From positions 1 to 64,000 of the forward strand of contig JADJBL010000002.1 of assembly GCA_016703765.1 (NCBI GenBank): a stretch of 64,000 nucleotides of DNA, in the 5' to 3' direction. The stretch is from Saprospirales bacterium. Lineage in GTDB: Bacteria > Bacteroidota > Bacteroidia > Chitinophagales > Saprospiraceae. The notes under the pieces are model-generated. The model was not told the DNA's origin. It saw only the letters and a list, made by a program, of their open reading frames with translations, and ran no database searches. Of the stretch, positions 3,274 through 41,277 are shown piece by piece. How positions within the stretch are numbered: position 1 is the stretch's first letter; every line of letters begins with the position of its first letter. Position numbers and translations under genes: made by a program.

Positions 3274-4071
3274 ATGCAAGATCAACCCTTGTTTGGCAAC
3301 GTGTTACGGGATATTCAGTTGGGAGTCAAGGCTCTTAAGGAGGCGTATCCCTTTGTGCGGAGGCACCGCCTGTGGATCGGGGTATTGTCTTATGGCTGGA
3401 TGTCCAAATTCCTGCTGGTCGTTGCCTTCATCATCGGACTCAACTTTCTGGCCGTGCTGGTCAACTGGTTCGGCTCCCTGCATCCAGAGGGGCCGCTCTC
3501 CTATGGCGCCAGCTTGCTCGACCTGTATTCGGGCATGTTCAAAAAAGGCTACCATTTGTTTTCCCTTGGAGGAATGAAATACCTCATTTTGATCCTCGGA
3601 GAGGTCTTGATCTTCCACGCCGCCCGGCGCACGATGGAGGTGTTGAAGGGGACCAAGGAGGCGGCGCCCTCCCTGAAGGATTTTATGAAGGCCCAGATGC
3701 GCATGATCGAGATCTCCCTGGCCGCATGGGCATTCGAATTAGGGGTCACCATCCTGATCTCCATAGCTTTGGGATTCATGCACGCCGATTGGCTCAAATC
3801 GCCCCTCAACTGGGCGGTCCAGTGCTTTTTCCTGGGCGCCGTAATGATAGATGGGTATTTCGAACACTACAAACTCAAATACAAGGCCAGCTTTACGCTG
3901 AGCAGGCAGATTGCAGGCCTTGCCCTTGTGTTGGGAGTGACTACTTACCTGCTTCTCTCCATACCCCTGATCGGGGCCGTTGTCGCCCCCTTTTTCGCCT
4001 CGATCGCAACCACGCTGGCCCTTTTTGAGATGGAGATCAAAGGATGGATACCACTAAAACTGAAGATATGA
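3274..4071 (+). CDS. multi-pass membrane protein, possibly EI24/CysZ-like
   Basis: The 265-residue protein has five or more hydrophobic segments (about 38-62, 88-106, 143-168, 178-193 and 215-255). It ends in LSIPLIGAVVAPFFASIATTLA, which is reminiscent of the last helix of EI24/CysZ-type proteins. That family link is tentative. The stop overlaps the next gene by four bases (ATGA), so the lipoprotein downstream is translationally coupled to it. A near-consensus box TAATTTTC lies at 3261-3268, just before the start. Function is unknown. Confidence 0.7.
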   Translation: MQDQPLFGNVLRDIQLGVKALKEAYPFVRRHRLWIGVLSYGWMSKFLLVVAFIIGLNFLAVLVNWFGSLHPEGPLSYGASLLDLYSGMFKKGYHLFSLGGMKYLILILGEVLIFHAARRTMEVLKGTKEAAPSLKDFMKAQMRMIEISLAAWAFELGVTILISIALGFMHADWLKSPLNWAVQCFFLGAVMIDGYFEHYKLKYKASFTLSRQIAGLALVLGVTTYLLLSIPLIGAVVAPFFASIATTLALFEMEIKGWIPLKLKI

Positions 4072-4523
4072 GAAACTTATTAATGCTTATTTCCTCCGGC
4101 ATACTCCTCCTCAGCTGCGGCGTTTCCAAAAAGAACTACCAAAGCGATGCCACCTCCCTCATCAAAATGAGCAAAGGGGTTTGCTTCGGCGCCTGCCCGT
4201 TTTATGATATCACGATCGACGGCACAGGAAAGGCCACCTATGTCGGGAAAAAATTTGTCGAAAAGATCGGCACCTTTACCAAGACCTTTAGCCCGGAAGA
4301 GACCAACCTGCTGTTCCAAAAATTCAAAAAAGCCGATTTCTGGGCCTTTGCCGACGAATACACCGAGGAAGTAACGGACCTTCCCACCACCTTCATCACC
4401 TTCGAACACAAAGGGCAGTCCAAGCGCATCAAGTCATACTACGGCACCCCTGAGGCGCTCCTGGCCCTCATCAACGAAGTGGATGCGTATTCGAATACAG
4501 AGGGTTGGAAGCAAATAGACTGA
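4068..4523 (+). CDS. DUF6438-like lipoprotein
   Basis: Starting at the ATG at 4068, the product is 151 residues. It opens with a signal peptide ending in LLLSC, a lipobox whose cysteine would be acylated. The mature part has KGVCFGACPFYDITIDGTG, typical of DUF6438 domains found in Bacteroidota lipoproteins. An in-frame ATG at 4044 would put eight extra polar residues before the signal peptide, and it lies inside the upstream gene. The ATGA overlap also favours 4068. The protein is probably anchored in an outer or periplasmic membrane. Its role is unknown. Confidence 0.75.
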   Translation: MRNLLMLISSGILLLSCGVSKKNYQSDATSLIKMSKGVCFGACPFYDITIDGTGKATYVGKKFVEKIGTFTKTFSPEETNLLFQKFKKADFWAFADEYTEEVTDLPTTFITFEHKGQSKRIKSYYGTPEALLALINEVDAYSNTEGWKQID

Positions 4524-4525
4524 AA

Positions 4526-4582
4526 AGTTTATAAGGTTTATGAGGTTTATAAACTTCATAAACCTTATAAACCTCATAAACT
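4526..4582. repeat. low-complexity palindrome of GTTTATAAG/GTTTATGAG units
   Basis: Tandem 9-base units (GTTTATAAG, GTTTATGAG, GTTTATAAA) on the left face their complements (CATAAACCTTATAAACC) on the right. Together they make a long imperfect hairpin directly after the lipoprotein stop. A terminator role is likely. Confidence 0.6.
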
Positions 4583-4627
4583 CCAGAAATACCTATTTCC
4601 GGGTATAGCCTCCAGCGATTTTTCCCC

Positions 4628-4635
4628 TATTTTTG
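4628..4635 (+). promoter_or_regulatory. -7 promoter box TATTTTTG for the structured RNA
   Basis: TATTTTTG fits TAnnTTTG. It stands at the head of a 350-base region that has no credible coding frame but has several hairpins and a terminator. A start site near 4643 is inferred. Confidence 0.45.
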
Positions 4636-4642
4636 TGTTACC

Positions 4643-4994
4643 GAAAACTGATTATCCCATGAAAAAACCGGTTCACACAACCTGCCTTTCCGCCTGTTTC
4701 AGGTATTTCCGTTTCCATTGTTGATGTAGTTTCCCGCAAGGCCTGATCCTTCGGCTTTCGGCGTTTTTGGACACGGACAAGGTGTTTTTCATGTAAGGGA
4801 TTTCCGGTTTTGGGAGAACGGGGGCAAACGCGCCCCTGCGATCGATAGCACAAGCTTCGGTGACGGTGGGGTAGATGTCACCGGAGCTCCCAAACATTAT
4901 TAGTTGAAGGGACTAATAGTACCTTGGAAACCCGGGGCGGAAAGAAAGCTTCCCGCCTGTAAAGGCCACAAGTTTAGTGGGAGCTCCTTTTTTT
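4643..4994 (+). ncRNA. candidate structured non-coding RNA, about 350 nt, unidentified
   Basis: The region lies between a TATTTTTG promoter box and a GC-rich hairpin followed by seven T (4988-4994). No conserved coding frame is present. Predicted pairings by eye are as follows. The ATGAAAAA near 4660 pairs with TTTTTCAT near 4786, closing a first domain. GGGGC/GCCCC form a small hairpin near 4820-4836. GGTGAC (4859-4864) pairs with GTCACC (4877-4882). GGAGCTCCC (4883-4891) pairs with GGGAGCTCC (4979-4987) and encloses a hairpin at 4896-4920 and a GGCGG/CCGCC hairpin. It lacks the signature segments of tmRNA, RNase P and SRP RNA. It could be a 6S-like RNA or something new. Start and identity are unproven. 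Confidence 0.45.
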
Positions 4995-5036
4995 ACTCCA
5001 CCATCACCGCCTTTTTCATACACAGATAAAATGCAG

Positions 5037-5067
5037 AAGGGGCCTTTGCTACAAAGGCCCCTTTTTT
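5037..5067 (+). terminator. rho-independent terminator
   Basis: A 12-bp stem AAGGGGCCTTTG / CAAAGGCCCCTT with a 3-base loop is followed by six T. It is a second terminator behind the RNA candidate and faces the convergent paaD gene. Confidence 0.75.
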
Positions 5068-5070
5068 GTT

Positions 5071-5129
5071 GAGGGGTTTAGGAGGTTTAGAAAGTTTAGC
5101 GCTAAACCTCCTAAACTTTCTAAACCCTC
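5071..5129. repeat. low-complexity palindrome of GTTTAG units
   Basis: Left arm (5071-5100) and right arm (5101-5129) are built from GGTTTAG, AGTTTAG and their complements and meet at AGCGCT. It sits between the terminator and the paaD stop. It belongs to the same class as the repeats at 4526 and 13203. Confidence 0.6.
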
Positions 5130-5152
5130 TAAACAGGGGCGCCTCGCGCGCC

Positions 5153-5641
5153 TTAATGGCATTTGAAATAATCAAATGGCTCCAGGCAATCCTGGCACTG
5201 ATAAAGGGACTTGCAGGCGGTCGAGCCAAACTGGCTGATCATGCGGGTGTGGGAGGAGTGACAACGGGGGCAGGGCACATTTTTTTCGGCGGCGAACAGG
5301 GCGGTCTTGTCCACAGTTTCTTCCACGGGAGGGGCGATGCCGTAGGCCTCCAGTTTCCTGCGGCCCGCTTCGGAAAGCCATTGGGTGGTCCAGGCTGGCG
5401 AAAGCACGGTCCTCACCACCACAGGCCGGTAGCCGGCCGTTTCCAGGGTGGCCCGGATTTCCATTTCAATCATATTCATCGCAGGACAACCAGAATAGGT
5501 GGGGGTGATGACCACCTCCACGCCGTTGTCGCCCAGCGCTTTCAGCTCCCTCACGACACCCATGTCTATGACCGTCAGCACCGGAATCTCCGGGTCGCAG
5601 ACCGATTCGAGCAACCCCCATATTTTTTCTTCCTGAAACAT
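5153..5641 (-). CDS. paaD: phenylacetyl-CoA epoxidase subunit PaaD-like protein
   Basis: The 162-residue protein has an N-terminal MIP18/DUF59-type domain (DPEIPVLTVIDMGVV, then TPTYSGCPAMNMIE around 50-60). The C-terminal cysteine-rich module has CPRCHSSHT at about 123, then CKSLYQCQDCLEPFDYFKCH, the characteristic PaaD end. PaaD supports maturation of the PaaABCE phenylacetyl-CoA epoxidase, probably through Fe-S or metal delivery. No paaA, B, C or E is adjacent: the gene upstream on the same strand is an unrelated hypothetical and the downstream side is convergent. It therefore stands alone here. Family assignment is firm, and the pathway role rests on homology. Confidence 0.88.
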   Translation of the reverse strand: MFQEEKIWGLLESVCDPEIPVLTVIDMGVVRELKALGDNGVEVVITPTYSGCPAMNMIEMEIRATLETAGYRPVVVRTVLSPAWTTQWLSEAGRRKLEAYGIAPPVEETVDKTALFAAEKNVPCPRCHSSHTRMISQFGSTACKSLYQCQDCLEPFDYFKCH

Positions 5642-5656
5642 TACGATTTTTTAAAA

Positions 5657-5758
5657 AAGACGCGAAGTATCGCGTCTTACCTTCACTGCTGGTCACCAGT
5701 CACTAGTCACCAGTCACCAGTCACCAATCACCATCCAATCACCAATCACCAATCACCC
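5657..5758. repeat. REP-like hairpin plus heptamer tandem repeat
   Basis: A 9-bp hairpin AAGACGCGA-agta-TCGCGTCTT (5657-5678) is followed by about ten copies of a 7-base unit (TCACCAG, TCACTAG, TCACCAA) from about 5692 to 5756. It occupies the gap between two genes on the minus strand. There are no spacers, so it is not CRISPR. Confidence 0.7.
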
Positions 5759-7090
5759 CCTCTCCGCCTTCGTCATATCCATCACCCTGATCATGTGCAG
5801 GTACGATTTGGCAAAGGCGGGAAGGTCCGAAAAATCAAGGCTTCCCGTCTGGGCCTGTAGCTTGGGATAGGTATCAGCCTGCGAGTCGACGATATGTCGG
5901 ATCGCCCTCCCGATGGCTTTCTTGTCGAACGTGTTGGTTTCCGGGTCGTAATAAGAATTGGAGAAGCCCAGCTTATTAAAATACGCGCTTTCCGTGATCT
6001 TGTAATACAACAAAAATAAGTCCCAATCGGGTTTGGGCACGGCGTAATTAAACAGGCAAAAGCCCACGATGTAGCCGGGAATGGAGAGGGCAACTTCCGG
6101 AAAATTGTTTTCCGCATACCAATCCATGTGCTGCAACTCCCCGTCGATCACGGTGACCACCTTCTCGTGGTTGACCGGACTGGTGATGCCGAAGGTGGCG
6201 GGCACCTGATACATTTCCTTGAAAAAATCCTCTTTGGGCCGGTCCAGCAGCTTCTGGAACTCCTTCCTCAACAGGTGGGTCTTCTGGATGGTATTTCGCT
6301 CGTCTTTCGAAAAATACTGCCGGTGGATGCGCTCCAGCACTTCCATCATGTGCCCTTCGGGCTTGGCCAGGAAATCGAGCTTGTAGCATAGGTGGAGCAG
6401 CAGGTAAGCATTGGCCCCCGGATATTGCTGCGGGTCGGGCTTGCCGCTGTCCATCAGTTGGAAGACCTTCCTGATCTCCTCGTTGATAAACTCGTGTTTG
6501 ATCTCCTTTTCGGCCAGTGGCAGGTCCTTCAAATGCCCCATCCCGACGGGCTTGAGCACCGGAAATTCGTCGAGGAGCAGGTCGTCCTGTTTGTCGGCGT
6601 TGGCCGCCAGTTCTTTCAGGCCGTAGTAGATCTTGTAGGGCGAACAGTCCAGCGTATAGGTGTCGAAGATGATGGAGATGTTGTTGTCCGCATCGAGGGC
6701 GAAGCGCGAGTATTTCAGGTCGTAATTGTGGTCGATGAGGCGGCGCAAAAAACCGATGTTCATCGTTTCGGTGCTGGCCACTTTGGACTCCGCTTTCACG
6801 TGATCCAAATTGGCCAGGCCGTTCACCTTTTTGGAGCCCTGGTAGAGTTCAAATTCAATGCCCGCTTCGGTTTCCCGGAAATGGACATTGTCCTCCCCCT
6901 CGTCGCGCAGGTATTGGAGGAAGGTCCGGTAGGACTCCATATAGTTTCCCTCCTCGAAGGCCTTGAGGGATTTATCCCAGGCTTCGTATTGGTCCGGCTT
7001 CTTGTAGGTGTCGGTGTACCTTCCGAATTTAACGGGGGGATCCTGCGGTTCGGGTGCAGGTTTTCCAAAAAGTCGATCTAATAATCCCAT
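5753..7090 (-). CDS. conserved hypothetical protein, possible YbjN/type III chaperone-like N-terminal region
   Basis: This soluble 445-residue protein has no signal peptide. Residues 45-165 (FLQYLRDEGEDNV... RFALDADNNISIIFD) alternate helix and strand in a way that resembles the YbjN / secretion-chaperone fold. This is an inference from pattern only. Residues 200-445 are helical and rich in aromatic residues. A TAATTTCG box close to the start resembles the -7 promoter element with one mismatch. The stop lies in the heptamer repeat before paaD, and no functional link with paaD is evident. I do not recognise a named family. Confidence 0.75.
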   Translation of the reverse strand: MGLLDRLFGKPAPEPQDPPVKFGRYTDTYKKPDQYEAWDKSLKAFEEGNYMESYRTFLQYLRDEGEDNVHFRETEAGIEFELYQGSKKVNGLANLDHVKAESKVASTETMNIGFLRRLIDHNYDLKYSRFALDADNNISIIFDTYTLDCSPYKIYYGLKELAANADKQDDLLLDEFPVLKPVGMGHLKDLPLAEKEIKHEFINEEIRKVFQLMDSGKPDPQQYPGANAYLLLHLCYKLDFLAKPEGHMMEVLERIHRQYFSKDERNTIQKTHLLRKEFQKLLDRPKEDFFKEMYQVPATFGITSPVNHEKVVTVIDGELQHMDWYAENNFPEVALSIPGYIVGFCLFNYAVPKPDWDLFLLYYKITESAYFNKLGFSNSYYDPETNTFDKKAIGRAIRHIVDSQADTYPKLQAQTGSLDFSDLPAFAKSYLHMIRVMDMTKAERG

Positions 7091-8453: not shown

Positions 8454-8687
8454 ATGCCTGTTCTTCAAGTTCGAAATATCCCCCAGGAGTTATTTGACAA
8501 ACTGGTTGCCTCCGCGGAAGCTGAGCGAAGGAGCATTACGCAACAGACCATCGTGCTTTTGGAGAAAGCGCTTCGGCAGGAGGAAGATACCCGTCGCCGA
8601 AAGGAAGCCTTGCAAAAATTGACGACCCGTGGATATTCATGGAAAGAGGATGCGGCTCAAATGGTCCGGGAGGATAGAGATCGATAA
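8454..8687 (+). CDS. ribbon-helix-helix antitoxin (VapB/FitA-like)
   Basis: The 77-residue protein starts MPVLQVRNIPQELFDKL, the strand-helix opening of FitA-like ribbon-helix-helix antitoxins. SITQQTIVLLEKAL gives the second helix. The acidic/basic C-terminal tail would wrap the toxin. It lies 11 bases before the PIN-domain toxin and behind tandem palindromes that are its probable binding sites. It is predicted to neutralise the toxin and repress the operon. Confidence 0.85.
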   Translation: MPVLQVRNIPQELFDKLVASAEAERRSITQQTIVLLEKALRQEEDTRRRKEALQKLTTRGYSWKEDAAQMVREDRDR

Positions 8688-8698
8688 GTGGGAAAAGG

Positions 8699-9106
8699 AT
8701 GAAAATAGTACTCGACGCCAGCGCGGCATTGGAAATTGCCGGAGGCAGACCCAACGCCCCCGGTTTTGCAGAGCTACTCCGCAATGCCACATCCGTTCTG
8801 GCGCCCGATCTCTTCCTGCTTGAGGTTGCAAACGCCCTATGGAAACTTCAGCGATTCGGTAATCTTCCTTCCGCTGATGTCCTGCCTCTTCTAAAGGAAA
8901 TTTCTGATTTGGTCGGTGAATGGAAACCCATCCAGGAACTATACCACCCCGCTTTGGAGCTGGCCATTCGTTTTGGCGTAACAGTTTATGACGGCTGTTA
9001 TTTGGCTTTGGCGTTTGAAAACCAGGCCTCCCTTTTAACCCTGGACAAAAAATTGCAGGGAGCGGCTAGGGAGATGGGGGTTTTGCTTGTGGGGGTAAAT
9101 GTCTGA
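8699..9106 (+). CDS. vapC: PIN-domain toxin (VapC-like ribonuclease)
   Basis: This 135-residue PIN-domain protein has the expected acidic residues. There is Asp in VLDASAALE (residue 6), Glu in LLEVANALWKL (about 42), Asp in VYDGCYLALA (about 97), and Asp in TLDKKL near 116. These coordinate Mg2+ or Mn2+ for RNA cleavage, usually of tRNA or rRNA in VapC enzymes. It pairs with the antitoxin directly upstream. All catalytic positions are intact, so the toxin looks functional. The RNA target cannot be read from sequence. Confidence 0.9.
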   Translation: MKIVLDASAALEIAGGRPNAPGFAELLRNATSVLAPDLFLLEVANALWKLQRFGNLPSADVLPLLKEISDLVGEWKPIQELYHPALELAIRFGVTVYDGCYLALAFENQASLLTLDKKLQGAAREMGVLLVGVNV

Positions 9107-39864: not shown

Positions 39865-39873
39865 ATTTTGCCG

Positions 39874-41239
39874 ATGAAACGGTTCATCACTACGCTGAAG
39901 AATATTTGGAAGATCAAGGAACTCCGCAACCGGATTCTCCTGACACTGGGCTTCCTGGGTGTTTACCGCCTGGGTTCCTTCATTGTCCTTCCCGGTGTCA
40001 TTGCCGCCAAACTGGATAGCCCGGCCCAAAACGCCAACGACCTGTTGGGCCTCATCAACATTTTTACGGGCGGAGCATTCCAGAATGCCTCCATTATGGC
40101 ATTGGGTATCATGCCCTATATCACTTCCTCCATCATCGTTCAGCTGCTGGGCTTCGCAGTGCCCTATTTCCAGCGCCTGCAACAGAAAGAGGGAGAAAGC
40201 GGCCGCAAGAAACTCAACCAGATCACCCGCCTGCTCACCCTGGCGATCACCCTGGTGCAAAGCGGCGCCTACCTGACTTACCTCCGCTCCCAGGGAGCGG
40301 TCGATCTGAGCCTCCCGCAAGGGATCTTCTGGATCTCCAATATCATTATCCTCGCCGCAGGTACGGTCTTTGCCATGTGGCTCGGCGAGCGTATCACCGA
40401 TCGCGGTATCGGCAACGGGGTGTCGCTGCTCATTACGGTGGGTATCATCTCCCGCCTGCCGCTCGCCATTGTGGCGGAATTCCAGCTTCAACTGGAATCC
40501 AACGGCTTGTTCATTTTTGTGATCGAACTGGCCCTCTTGTTCCTGATCATCATGGCGACGATCCTGGTGGTTCAGGGGGTTCGAAAGATACCCCTCCAGT
40601 TTGCCAAGCGGATGGTGGGCCGCGGTACCGCCAATATGCCCGTGGCCGGCGCCCGCGATTATATTCCCCTGAAAGTGAACGCCGCCGGGGTTATGCCGAT
40701 CATCTTCGCCCAGGCCCTGATGTTCCTCCCGGTGACGGTGGCACAATTTGTGGCCGGCAACGATCCGAACGCGATGTCCTCGGGATGGCTCCAGTCGCTG
40801 ACCTCCCCGTTTTCCTTCTGGGCCAGCGTGATCACCTTCTTTATGGTAGTAATTTTTACTTACATATATACCGCATTGCTGGTTAACCCCACGCAATACG
40901 CCGATTTCCTCAAGCGCCAAAACGCTTTCATCCCGGGTATCAAACCGGGGAAACCGACGGCCGATTTTATCGACTCCTGTTACCACCCGCATCACCCTTC
41001 CCGGATCGATCATCCTGGGTCTGATCGCCGTTCTCCCCGCCGTAGCTGTGGCTTTCGGGGTGAACCAGACCCTGGCTGTGTTCTTCGGAGGAACCTCTCT
41101 GCTCATCCTCGTAGCCGTCGTGCTCGATACTTTGCAGCAAATCGAGAGCCATCTGTTGATGCGGCGCTACGACGGTCTGGTCAAATCGGGCCGGATACAG
41201 GGCAGGAGCAAGATTCAGGGAATCGGAGCAAATATGTAA
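39874..41239 (+). CDS. secY: preprotein translocase subunit SecY, with single-base frameshift
   Basis: From the ATG at 39874 the first 368 residues are a normal SecY: GITPYITSSIIVQ-like NGIMPYITSSIIVQLL, the TRLLTLAITLVQ helix and the cytosolic KRMVGRGTANMPV loop. After GKPTADFIDS (about 40977) the frame is wrong. Moving it by one base at 40978-40980 restores VTTRITLPGSIILGLIAVLP, FFGGTSLLILVAVVLDTLQQ and the C-terminus RRYDGLVKSGRIQGRS, ending at 41239. One extra base, probably the T at 40978, explains this. SecY is essential, so an assembly or sequencing error is the likely cause. Confidence 0.92.
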
Positions 41240-41277
41240 AAAACGCCATCGCGTTGAACGTTGTGGAAAGATAAACA

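Follow-up and report, generated by a model that had tools for sequence, protein, structure and literature searches.

The window, the whole 64,000-nt stretch of Saprospirales DNA analysed here, contains a predicted structured RNA of about 350-425 nt that begins near position 4643, and comparison across genomes shows this element to be a putative single-copy RNA found in part of the Saprospiraceae. In most relatives, its conserved core lies inside an open reading frame (ORF), either that of a secreted protein of ~400 aa or that of a giant surface-protein gene. The element has been selected as an RNA and appears to have outlived its protein in several lineages, including that of the window, and we interpret it, with a probability of about 0.55, as a trans-acting regulatory RNA that was formerly a dual-function mRNA.

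Architecture of the element in the window

The element is flanked upstream by a DUF6438 protein gene (4044-4523, + strand) and downstream by paaD (PaaD; 5153-5641, - strand), which runs towards it. A sequence-only reading of the same DNA had placed the element between convergent genes and considered a leader of a coding gene unlikely, and both points hold in the window, where the next gene is paaD. The same reading had missed the presence of the RNA inside protein genes of most relatives, the putative operator upstream of it and the common short upstream ORF. The element is enclosed by two palindromic repeats, which begin with GTTTATAAGGTTTATGAGG and GTTTAGGAGGTTTAGAAAG (4527-4581 and 5074-5134).

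All features described below lie on the + strand. A TACC-N8-GGTA palindrome at 4590-4605 forms the putative operator, which presumably resembles NarL-type 7-2-7 sites and begins 38 nt before the start of the promoter box TATTTTTG (4628-4635). The pattern of this box, TAnnTTTG, is one that we take to be the Bacteroidetes -7 box; on the strength of its sequence and of relatives, transcription is predicted to start near 4643. Operator and box occur together once in the window and in 0/100 shuffles, and a generic scan, which does not cover Bacteroidetes promoters, reports no sigma-70-type promoter at the element. An upstream ORF of 21 codons (4659-4724) follows in the context TCCCATGAA; the same kind of context recurs in relatives, and the peptide sequence is not conserved. 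This ORF is all that is left of a coding part in the window's copy of the element, and the earlier statement that there is no credible reading frame needs correcting as regards these 21 codons.

The core is built from three predicted helices and one alternative helix. Specifically, P1 comprises the 5' arm GGTGAC (4859-4864), the almost invariant loop GGTGGGGTAGAT (4865-4876), which is partly paired in P0, and the 3' arm GTCACC (4877-4882); it is defined by comparison and shows little covariation. The 5' arm of the closing stem P2, GGAGCTCCC (4883-4891), is fully complementary to its 3' arm GGGAGCTCC (4979-4987), also defined by comparison, and forms 9/9 pairs in 17/17 sequences of alignment A1, with one-sided changes only. 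The P3 hairpin, TATTAG-TTGAAGGGA-CTAATA (4898-4918), has a covarying stem and an almost invariant loop, TTGAAGGG. P2 is followed by a T7 tract (4988-4994), a terminator-like U-tract in the RNA, and a T-rich tail occupies this position in coding, giant and non-coding copies alike. The 3' strand of P0, TACTCCACCATCACC (4994-5008), forms 14/15 pairs with 4859-4873 and is mutually exclusive with P1. Finally, folding yields a terminator-like hairpin (5037-5063) that runs into T6 (5062-5067). The conservation test covers 4859-5008, and the predicted 5' helices lie at 4643-4830.

The promoter box, closing stem and T7 tract of the sequence-only reading are thus present at the positions it gave, and the RNA folds better than shuffles on the + strand, in line with the structure it proposed. 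The fold of 4643-4997 has a z of -2.68 (2/100 shuffles equally good), that of 4643-5069 a z of -5.55 (0/100) and that of the 3' half, 4853-5068, a z of -6.65 (0/200), while the reverse strand of 4643-4997 is not clearly above chance (z -1.49, 13/100). The P2 stem with its U-tract is intrinsic terminator-like, termination itself being a prediction. The generic terminator scan, which allows loops of 3-8 only, leaves P2 unflagged; its two terminator-like sites, against 1.5 in shuffles, give no support beyond chance and correspond to the 5037-5063 hairpin, flagged on the - strand only, and a small + strand stem at 4692-4704.

Distribution, covariation and comparison with known RNAs

The first relatives were obtained with a neighbouring amidohydrolase as query, which gave 80 of 542 confirmed loci, mostly from Saprospiraceae, Lewinella and Phaeodactylibacter. 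Two of these 80 (L018 and L033) carry a similar stretch, adjoining paaD in both; L111 represents the same place as L018. In the window, a 445-aa protein (5753-7090) without a Pfam or NCBIfam match lies beside paaD, as it does in L033 and L111. A DNA search with 4780-5000 matches 16/20 genomes. A covariance model, R1, of 75 positions of the core matches 67/398 Saprospiraceae genomes with one match per genome, a count that includes two doubtful cases: a probable chance match in G178 (L191, 31 bits) and, in G034 (L190, 34 bits), a homologue of the giant proteins that lacks the conserved nucleotides. The order sample (24/396) and the phylum sample (2/395) add matches only among the same 67 genomes. 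Including the window, the 68 loci comprise 35 copies in the ~400-codon ORF or a shortened form of it, 14 in a giant ORF, 14 non-coding copies and five set aside; L163 is classed as non-coding despite a contig end immediately past P2, L188 is divergent, and all such counts refer to related sequences, not to independent events.

In relatives, P1 keeps the form GGTGAC, loop GGTGGGGTAGAT, GTCACC; P2 pairs GGAGCTCCC with GGGGGCTCC, of which GGGAGCTCC is the window form; and P3 has a covarying stem around the loop TTGAAGGGG, represented in the window by TTGAAGGGA. Alignment A1 (17 sequences, MAFFT) has 98.0% paired cells against 34-51% in slid controls, 19 double-change cells and a covariation score of 0.211, and each of the three values is reached by 0/500 shuffles; its number of further pair types is reached by 345/500. 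All double changes in A1 fall in P3, P2 showing one-sided changes only and P1 none. Alignment A3 was fitted to the model and comprises 67 distinct sequences in 68 rows, doubtful ones included. It has 94.2% paired cells and 80 double-change cells (0/500 shuffles), and its count of doubly changed pairs is reached by 23/500. P1 remains almost free of covariation in A3, with 3 double-change cells in two pairs. At one P2 pair, G-U is the commonest state and changes to A-U or C-G. Comparison shows a predicted core in which one helix, P3, covaries strongly and the other two, P1 and P2, vary little, with covariation beyond shuffled and slid controls. The compensatory changes that the sequence-only reading had proposed to look for are accordingly present among the Saprospiraceae homologues, and strong in P3.

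P0 is a long-range helix between the P1-loop strand and a segment beyond the tail (4859-4873 with 4994-5008 in the window). The helix survey of the core covers 63/68 loci, leaving aside four divergent, doubtful or truncated loci (L189, L190, L191 and L192) and, for an anchor misfit, L100, and takes the best-pairing stretch as the 3' arm of P2, a choice that favours P2. The table of P0 against P1, drawn up also without L163 (too short) and L184 (giant-gene relic), scores P0 as present at a 1% threshold set by shuffles. P0 is absent in 34/36 sequences with six Watson-Crick P1 pairs and present in 19/25 without them (absent in 6), giving a Fisher p of 9e-9 over 61/68 loci that is overstated, relatedness being ignored. 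Comparison thus shows that P0 tends to replace P1 in some lineages, as far as predicted pairing goes; the window sequence is one of two that have both.

At gathering threshold, no Rfam family lies over the element in the window, the outcome of a check that the sequence-only reading had itself suggested, and the 12 non-coding relatives searched give no match except a tRNA elsewhere in locus L180. At lax thresholds, matches around the element in the window are chance-like, far below family cut-offs and in many cases to the flanking palindromes, and those over the core of the relatives are chance-like with nothing meaningful among them. This agrees with the earlier observation that signatures of tmRNA, RNase P, SRP RNA and riboswitches are absent. 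The proposal of an undescribed RNA class in the lineage gains support from the lack of an Rfam family, from homologues in 67/398 family genomes and from the covariation, whereas the alternative proposal of a 6S-like RNA does not: 6S RNA is a long hairpin with a central bubble, and the element shares with the Rfam 6S families the character of a stand-alone RNA of a few hundred nt but matches none of their models and differs in architecture (P1 or P0, P2, P3). As a candidate, 6S or another known RNA was rejected on the Rfam results, strict and lax.

Candidate structured RNAs from comparative genomics have been reported (PMC2864571, PMC8040213) and were likewise found by covariation; those listed as Rfam families, to which the comparison was limited, do not match the element. 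The titles and abstract openings searched contain no description of this RNA, nor, in searches not aimed at that operator, of the arrangement of operator and upstream ORF. A viral collection holds no exact copy of a 21-nt core; a phage or mobile origin was set aside on this result and on the single match per genome.

Coding and non-coding copies

The 400-aa protein, taken from one query, has 142 homologues, and three such proteins show no Pfam domain above cut-off. The motif GDGGVDVTGAP or a near form is present in 108/120 homologues among the matches listed, with variants (e.g. GDYGVDVTGAP) in the other 12. At conserved residues of the coding copies, third codon positions have a pairwise identity of 0.99 in the core (11 columns), 0.81 in P3 (6 columns) and 1.00 in the 3' arm of P2 (3 columns), against 0.40 in the rest (27 columns; MWU p 1.5e-8 for element versus rest). 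The corresponding values in giant copies are 0.83, 0.76 and 1.00 against 0.52, the test using 28/35 coding and 10/14 giant sequences after those at least 85% identical were dropped. Moreover, codon variation in P3 is paired, TTA occurring with GCT or TTG with GCC. Because third positions are frozen and P3 variation is paired, the element's nucleotides are held for more than the protein, a constraint beyond the protein code. The frozen and covarying synonymous codons thereby show that the predicted transcript of coding relatives would be both mRNA and structured RNA; a conserved ORF and a conserved RNA structure coexist in coding relatives only.

Matches to the C-terminal module of the 400-aa protein are found in large ORFs of G012 and G002 (2484 and 2152 codons), farther on in the same contig and on the same strand, and in a 13103-codon open frame on contig C68 of G017 (L325).

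In 14 genomes, the window's among them, the core is kept while the ORF is either missing or interrupted. P2 is fully paired in 13/14 of these non-coding copies, and all 14 keep P3 with at least 4/6 pairs and a near-invariant loop. In L163, the core is intact and is surrounded by what is left of the ORF, interrupted by stops and a change of frame. Used as a query against 13 non-coding genomes, the protein has no match in three, only the L163 relic in G167, and in the remainder matches within residues 209-385, inside large ORFs; apart from the relic, none of the 13 has a match over the N-terminal half of the protein. Gene order links the two kinds of locus as well. A polyketide-cyclase-like gene stands before many coding copies and has been retained at the non-coding L105, L110, L169 and L181; L110 has this gene on one side and a CMD gene on the other, as does the coding L103. 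T-runs after P2 average 5.29 in non-coding against 3.97 in coding copies (14 vs 34 sequences, p 0.0006), as would be expected if termination at P2 matters more once no ORF runs through. By eye, conserved stretches downstream of the non-coding RNA are shared within the groups L110, L169, L181 (AAGGGTTTCTCATACAGGAATATT) and L176, L180, L187 (GGGTACT), and are possibly promoters of the next genes.

The distribution of the two states was mapped on a tree of a single protein, SecY. From the 67 matching genomes, 56 were searched and 55 gave SecY, which with the window makes 56 rows; the non-coding genomes G321 and G045 are not among them, and the branch of the window is long (0.81). With its 12 non-coding rows spread over five places, the tree requires five changes against 10.9 for shuffled labels, three of the five being forced by well-supported branches. 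Specifically, the window groups with G014 and G020 (94/50); G011, G010 and G046 group together (100/100); G017 stands beside the coding G009 (94/85) in an otherwise coding clade (100/98); G167, G081 and G226 form a fourth place (100/99); and G274 and G189 a fifth (99/99). Since the ORFs are homologous, the simpler reading is that the ORF was lost repeatedly and the core kept, the direction of change following from that homology. In the window, secY (39868-41274) gives matches that nearly all end at residue 371, with a weaker piece in another frame in several; it appears that a sequencing error or a real frameshift breaks the frame near 40980.

Proposed function and its alternatives

In the mechanism that we propose, the TACC-N8-GGTA palindrome would be the binding site of a regulator that governs transcription starting near 4643. 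The RNA would begin with the short upstream ORF, which is present as sequence and presumably translated, and would end in the conserved core, with the P1 hairpin, closing stem P2, P3 hairpin and U-tract and with P0 as the alternative to P1; termination would occur at P2 or after P0. Ancestrally, the core would have lain within an ORF for a secreted relative of giant surface proteins; this ORF would later have been lost while the core, and in nearly all such copies the operator and promoter, were kept. Survival without the ORF points to action in trans as the most likely mode for the RNA. Such action could proceed through the G-rich segments GGUGGGGUAGA and GAAGGGG, by mRNA pairing or protein binding, and the genes tuned may be those under the same operator, with large surface proteins among the candidate targets. 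Against a trans role stands P0, which would bury the supposed active segment GGUGGGGUAGA. More tentatively, at somewhat less than even odds, a protein gene with an internal RNA may have become a pure RNA gene several times in one family and given rise to a new class of trans-acting regulators of surface proteins.

The operator-promoter pattern was defined as TACC-N8-GGTA followed by TAnnTTTG at a spacing of 21-23 nt, within 900 nt upstream of the core. It occurs upstream on the same strand at 37/68 loci and downstream on the opposite strand at 0/68; by class, it is found in 12/14 non-coding copies (L105 and L188 lack a recognisable operator), 25/35 coding, 0/14 giant and 0/5 set aside. Genome-wide, and with the element's own promoters included, 10 genomes contain 20 instances of the pattern against 3 of the reversed control, and with looser spacing 24 genomes contain 62 against 14. 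Away from the core, the operator-promoter (L253-L310) stands before one to several genes in each genome. By eye, about a dozen of 37 such sites precede large surface-protein-like ORFs with similar signal-like N-termini (e.g. MEKTKFTFVSP) and leaders mostly of 330-790 nt; many of the other genes behind the operator are clearly not surface proteins, and 8/37 sites have no ORF in reach.

An upstream ORF in the context [TC]CCATGA (CCCGTGA once), at most 260 nt from the predicted start, is found at 33/37 core loci with the operator, and its peptides vary widely in sequence and in length (16-50 aa). The other operator-promoters are likewise often accompanied by a short upstream ORF with the start context TCCCATGA, and [TC]CCATGA occurs in 18/34 of their leaders (two being long-ORF starts) against 3.25% of random stretches. 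The search for further core copies near other operators gave nothing convincing (39 loci, best E 0.14). Against 29 other co-operator leaders, complementarity to the two G-rich segments is not above shuffles overall (mean z -0.28 and +0.23); five leaders, singled out after the fact, have z below -2 (L255, L284, L285, L301 and L303). A pairing of a leader box, CCCTTAAAC, with the P3 loop, seen by eye in coding copies, was dropped as a candidate, several non-coding copies not keeping it.

The same observations bear on the alternatives. That the element acts purely in cis on its own mRNA, through attenuation, translational pausing or stability, and that the non-coding copies are decaying pseudogenes, is unlikely: P2 and its T-rich tail do look terminator-like inside the ORF, most loci have the element inside ORFs and the ORF of L163 is plainly decayed, but P2 stays fully paired in all but one of the non-coding copies, P3 and its near-invariant loop persist in every one, the T-runs after P2 are longer there than in coding copies, and the operator-promoter is nearly always retained. 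The next gene in the window, being convergent, offers no same-direction target for a cis-regulatory leader or riboswitch; at L110, a same-strand CMD gene lies 232 nt downstream of the RNA. We regard it as improbable that the upstream-ORF peptide is the kept product and that the role of the core is just to terminate or stabilise the corresponding message, since the peptides vary widely while the core is almost invariant, even though the start context recurs at most core loci with the operator and in other co-operator leaders far more often than in random stretches.

A site acting at the DNA level, for binding or recombination, would account for inverted repeats that occur once per genome in both coding and non-coding contexts, yet it is highly improbable in view of the G-U state at one P2 pair with its changes to A-U or C-G, the strand preference of the operator-promoter and the long-range P0. 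There is scarcely any likelihood that a known RNA (6S-like, tmRNA, RNase P, SRP RNA or riboswitch) persists here in divergent form; single copy number, a promoter-like box of its own and a length of about 350 nt would fit one, and the Rfam results for the window and the 12 non-coding relatives do not. Conservation at the protein level, or the recent transfer of a single gene, is an equally implausible source of the identical nucleotides: the widespread GDGGVDVTGAP motif speaks for protein constraint, whereas the freezing of synonymous positions is confined to the element, with covariation in P3, the flanks have diverged and non-coding copies exist. Covariation, frozen codons, the P0/P1 relation and the operator strand were the grounds on which a DNA site, protein-only conservation and recent transfer were rejected as the main explanation.

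SgrS and RNAIII are bacterial dual-function RNAs. VcdRP is described as another (PMC8672173). With these the proposed trans-acting RNA would share an ORF and an RNA function on one transcript; unlike them, its core overlaps the ORF itself, of ~400 codons or in a giant gene, its ORF has apparently been lost with the RNA kept in several lineages, and its partners are candidates only. In mammals, Xist derives from Lnx3, a protein gene turned non-coding RNA gene. A former protein gene would persist as an RNA gene here too, although the present case is bacterial, involves several losses in related lineages and has the functional RNA part within the former coding sequence, visible in coding relatives. 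If the proposed history is true, the bacterial passage from protein gene to RNA gene can be seen in stages (coding, decayed, non-coding) that can be compared side by side, and the RNA function would be older than the loss of the ORF. A conserved functional RNA can hide in ordinary protein genes, where intergenic-only RNA searches miss it. The data also point to a common arrangement of operator and upstream ORF before surface-protein-like genes of Saprospiraceae. Elsewhere in the window, a small gene pair at 8454-9106 resembles, by eye, a toxin-antitoxin system of the VapBC type.
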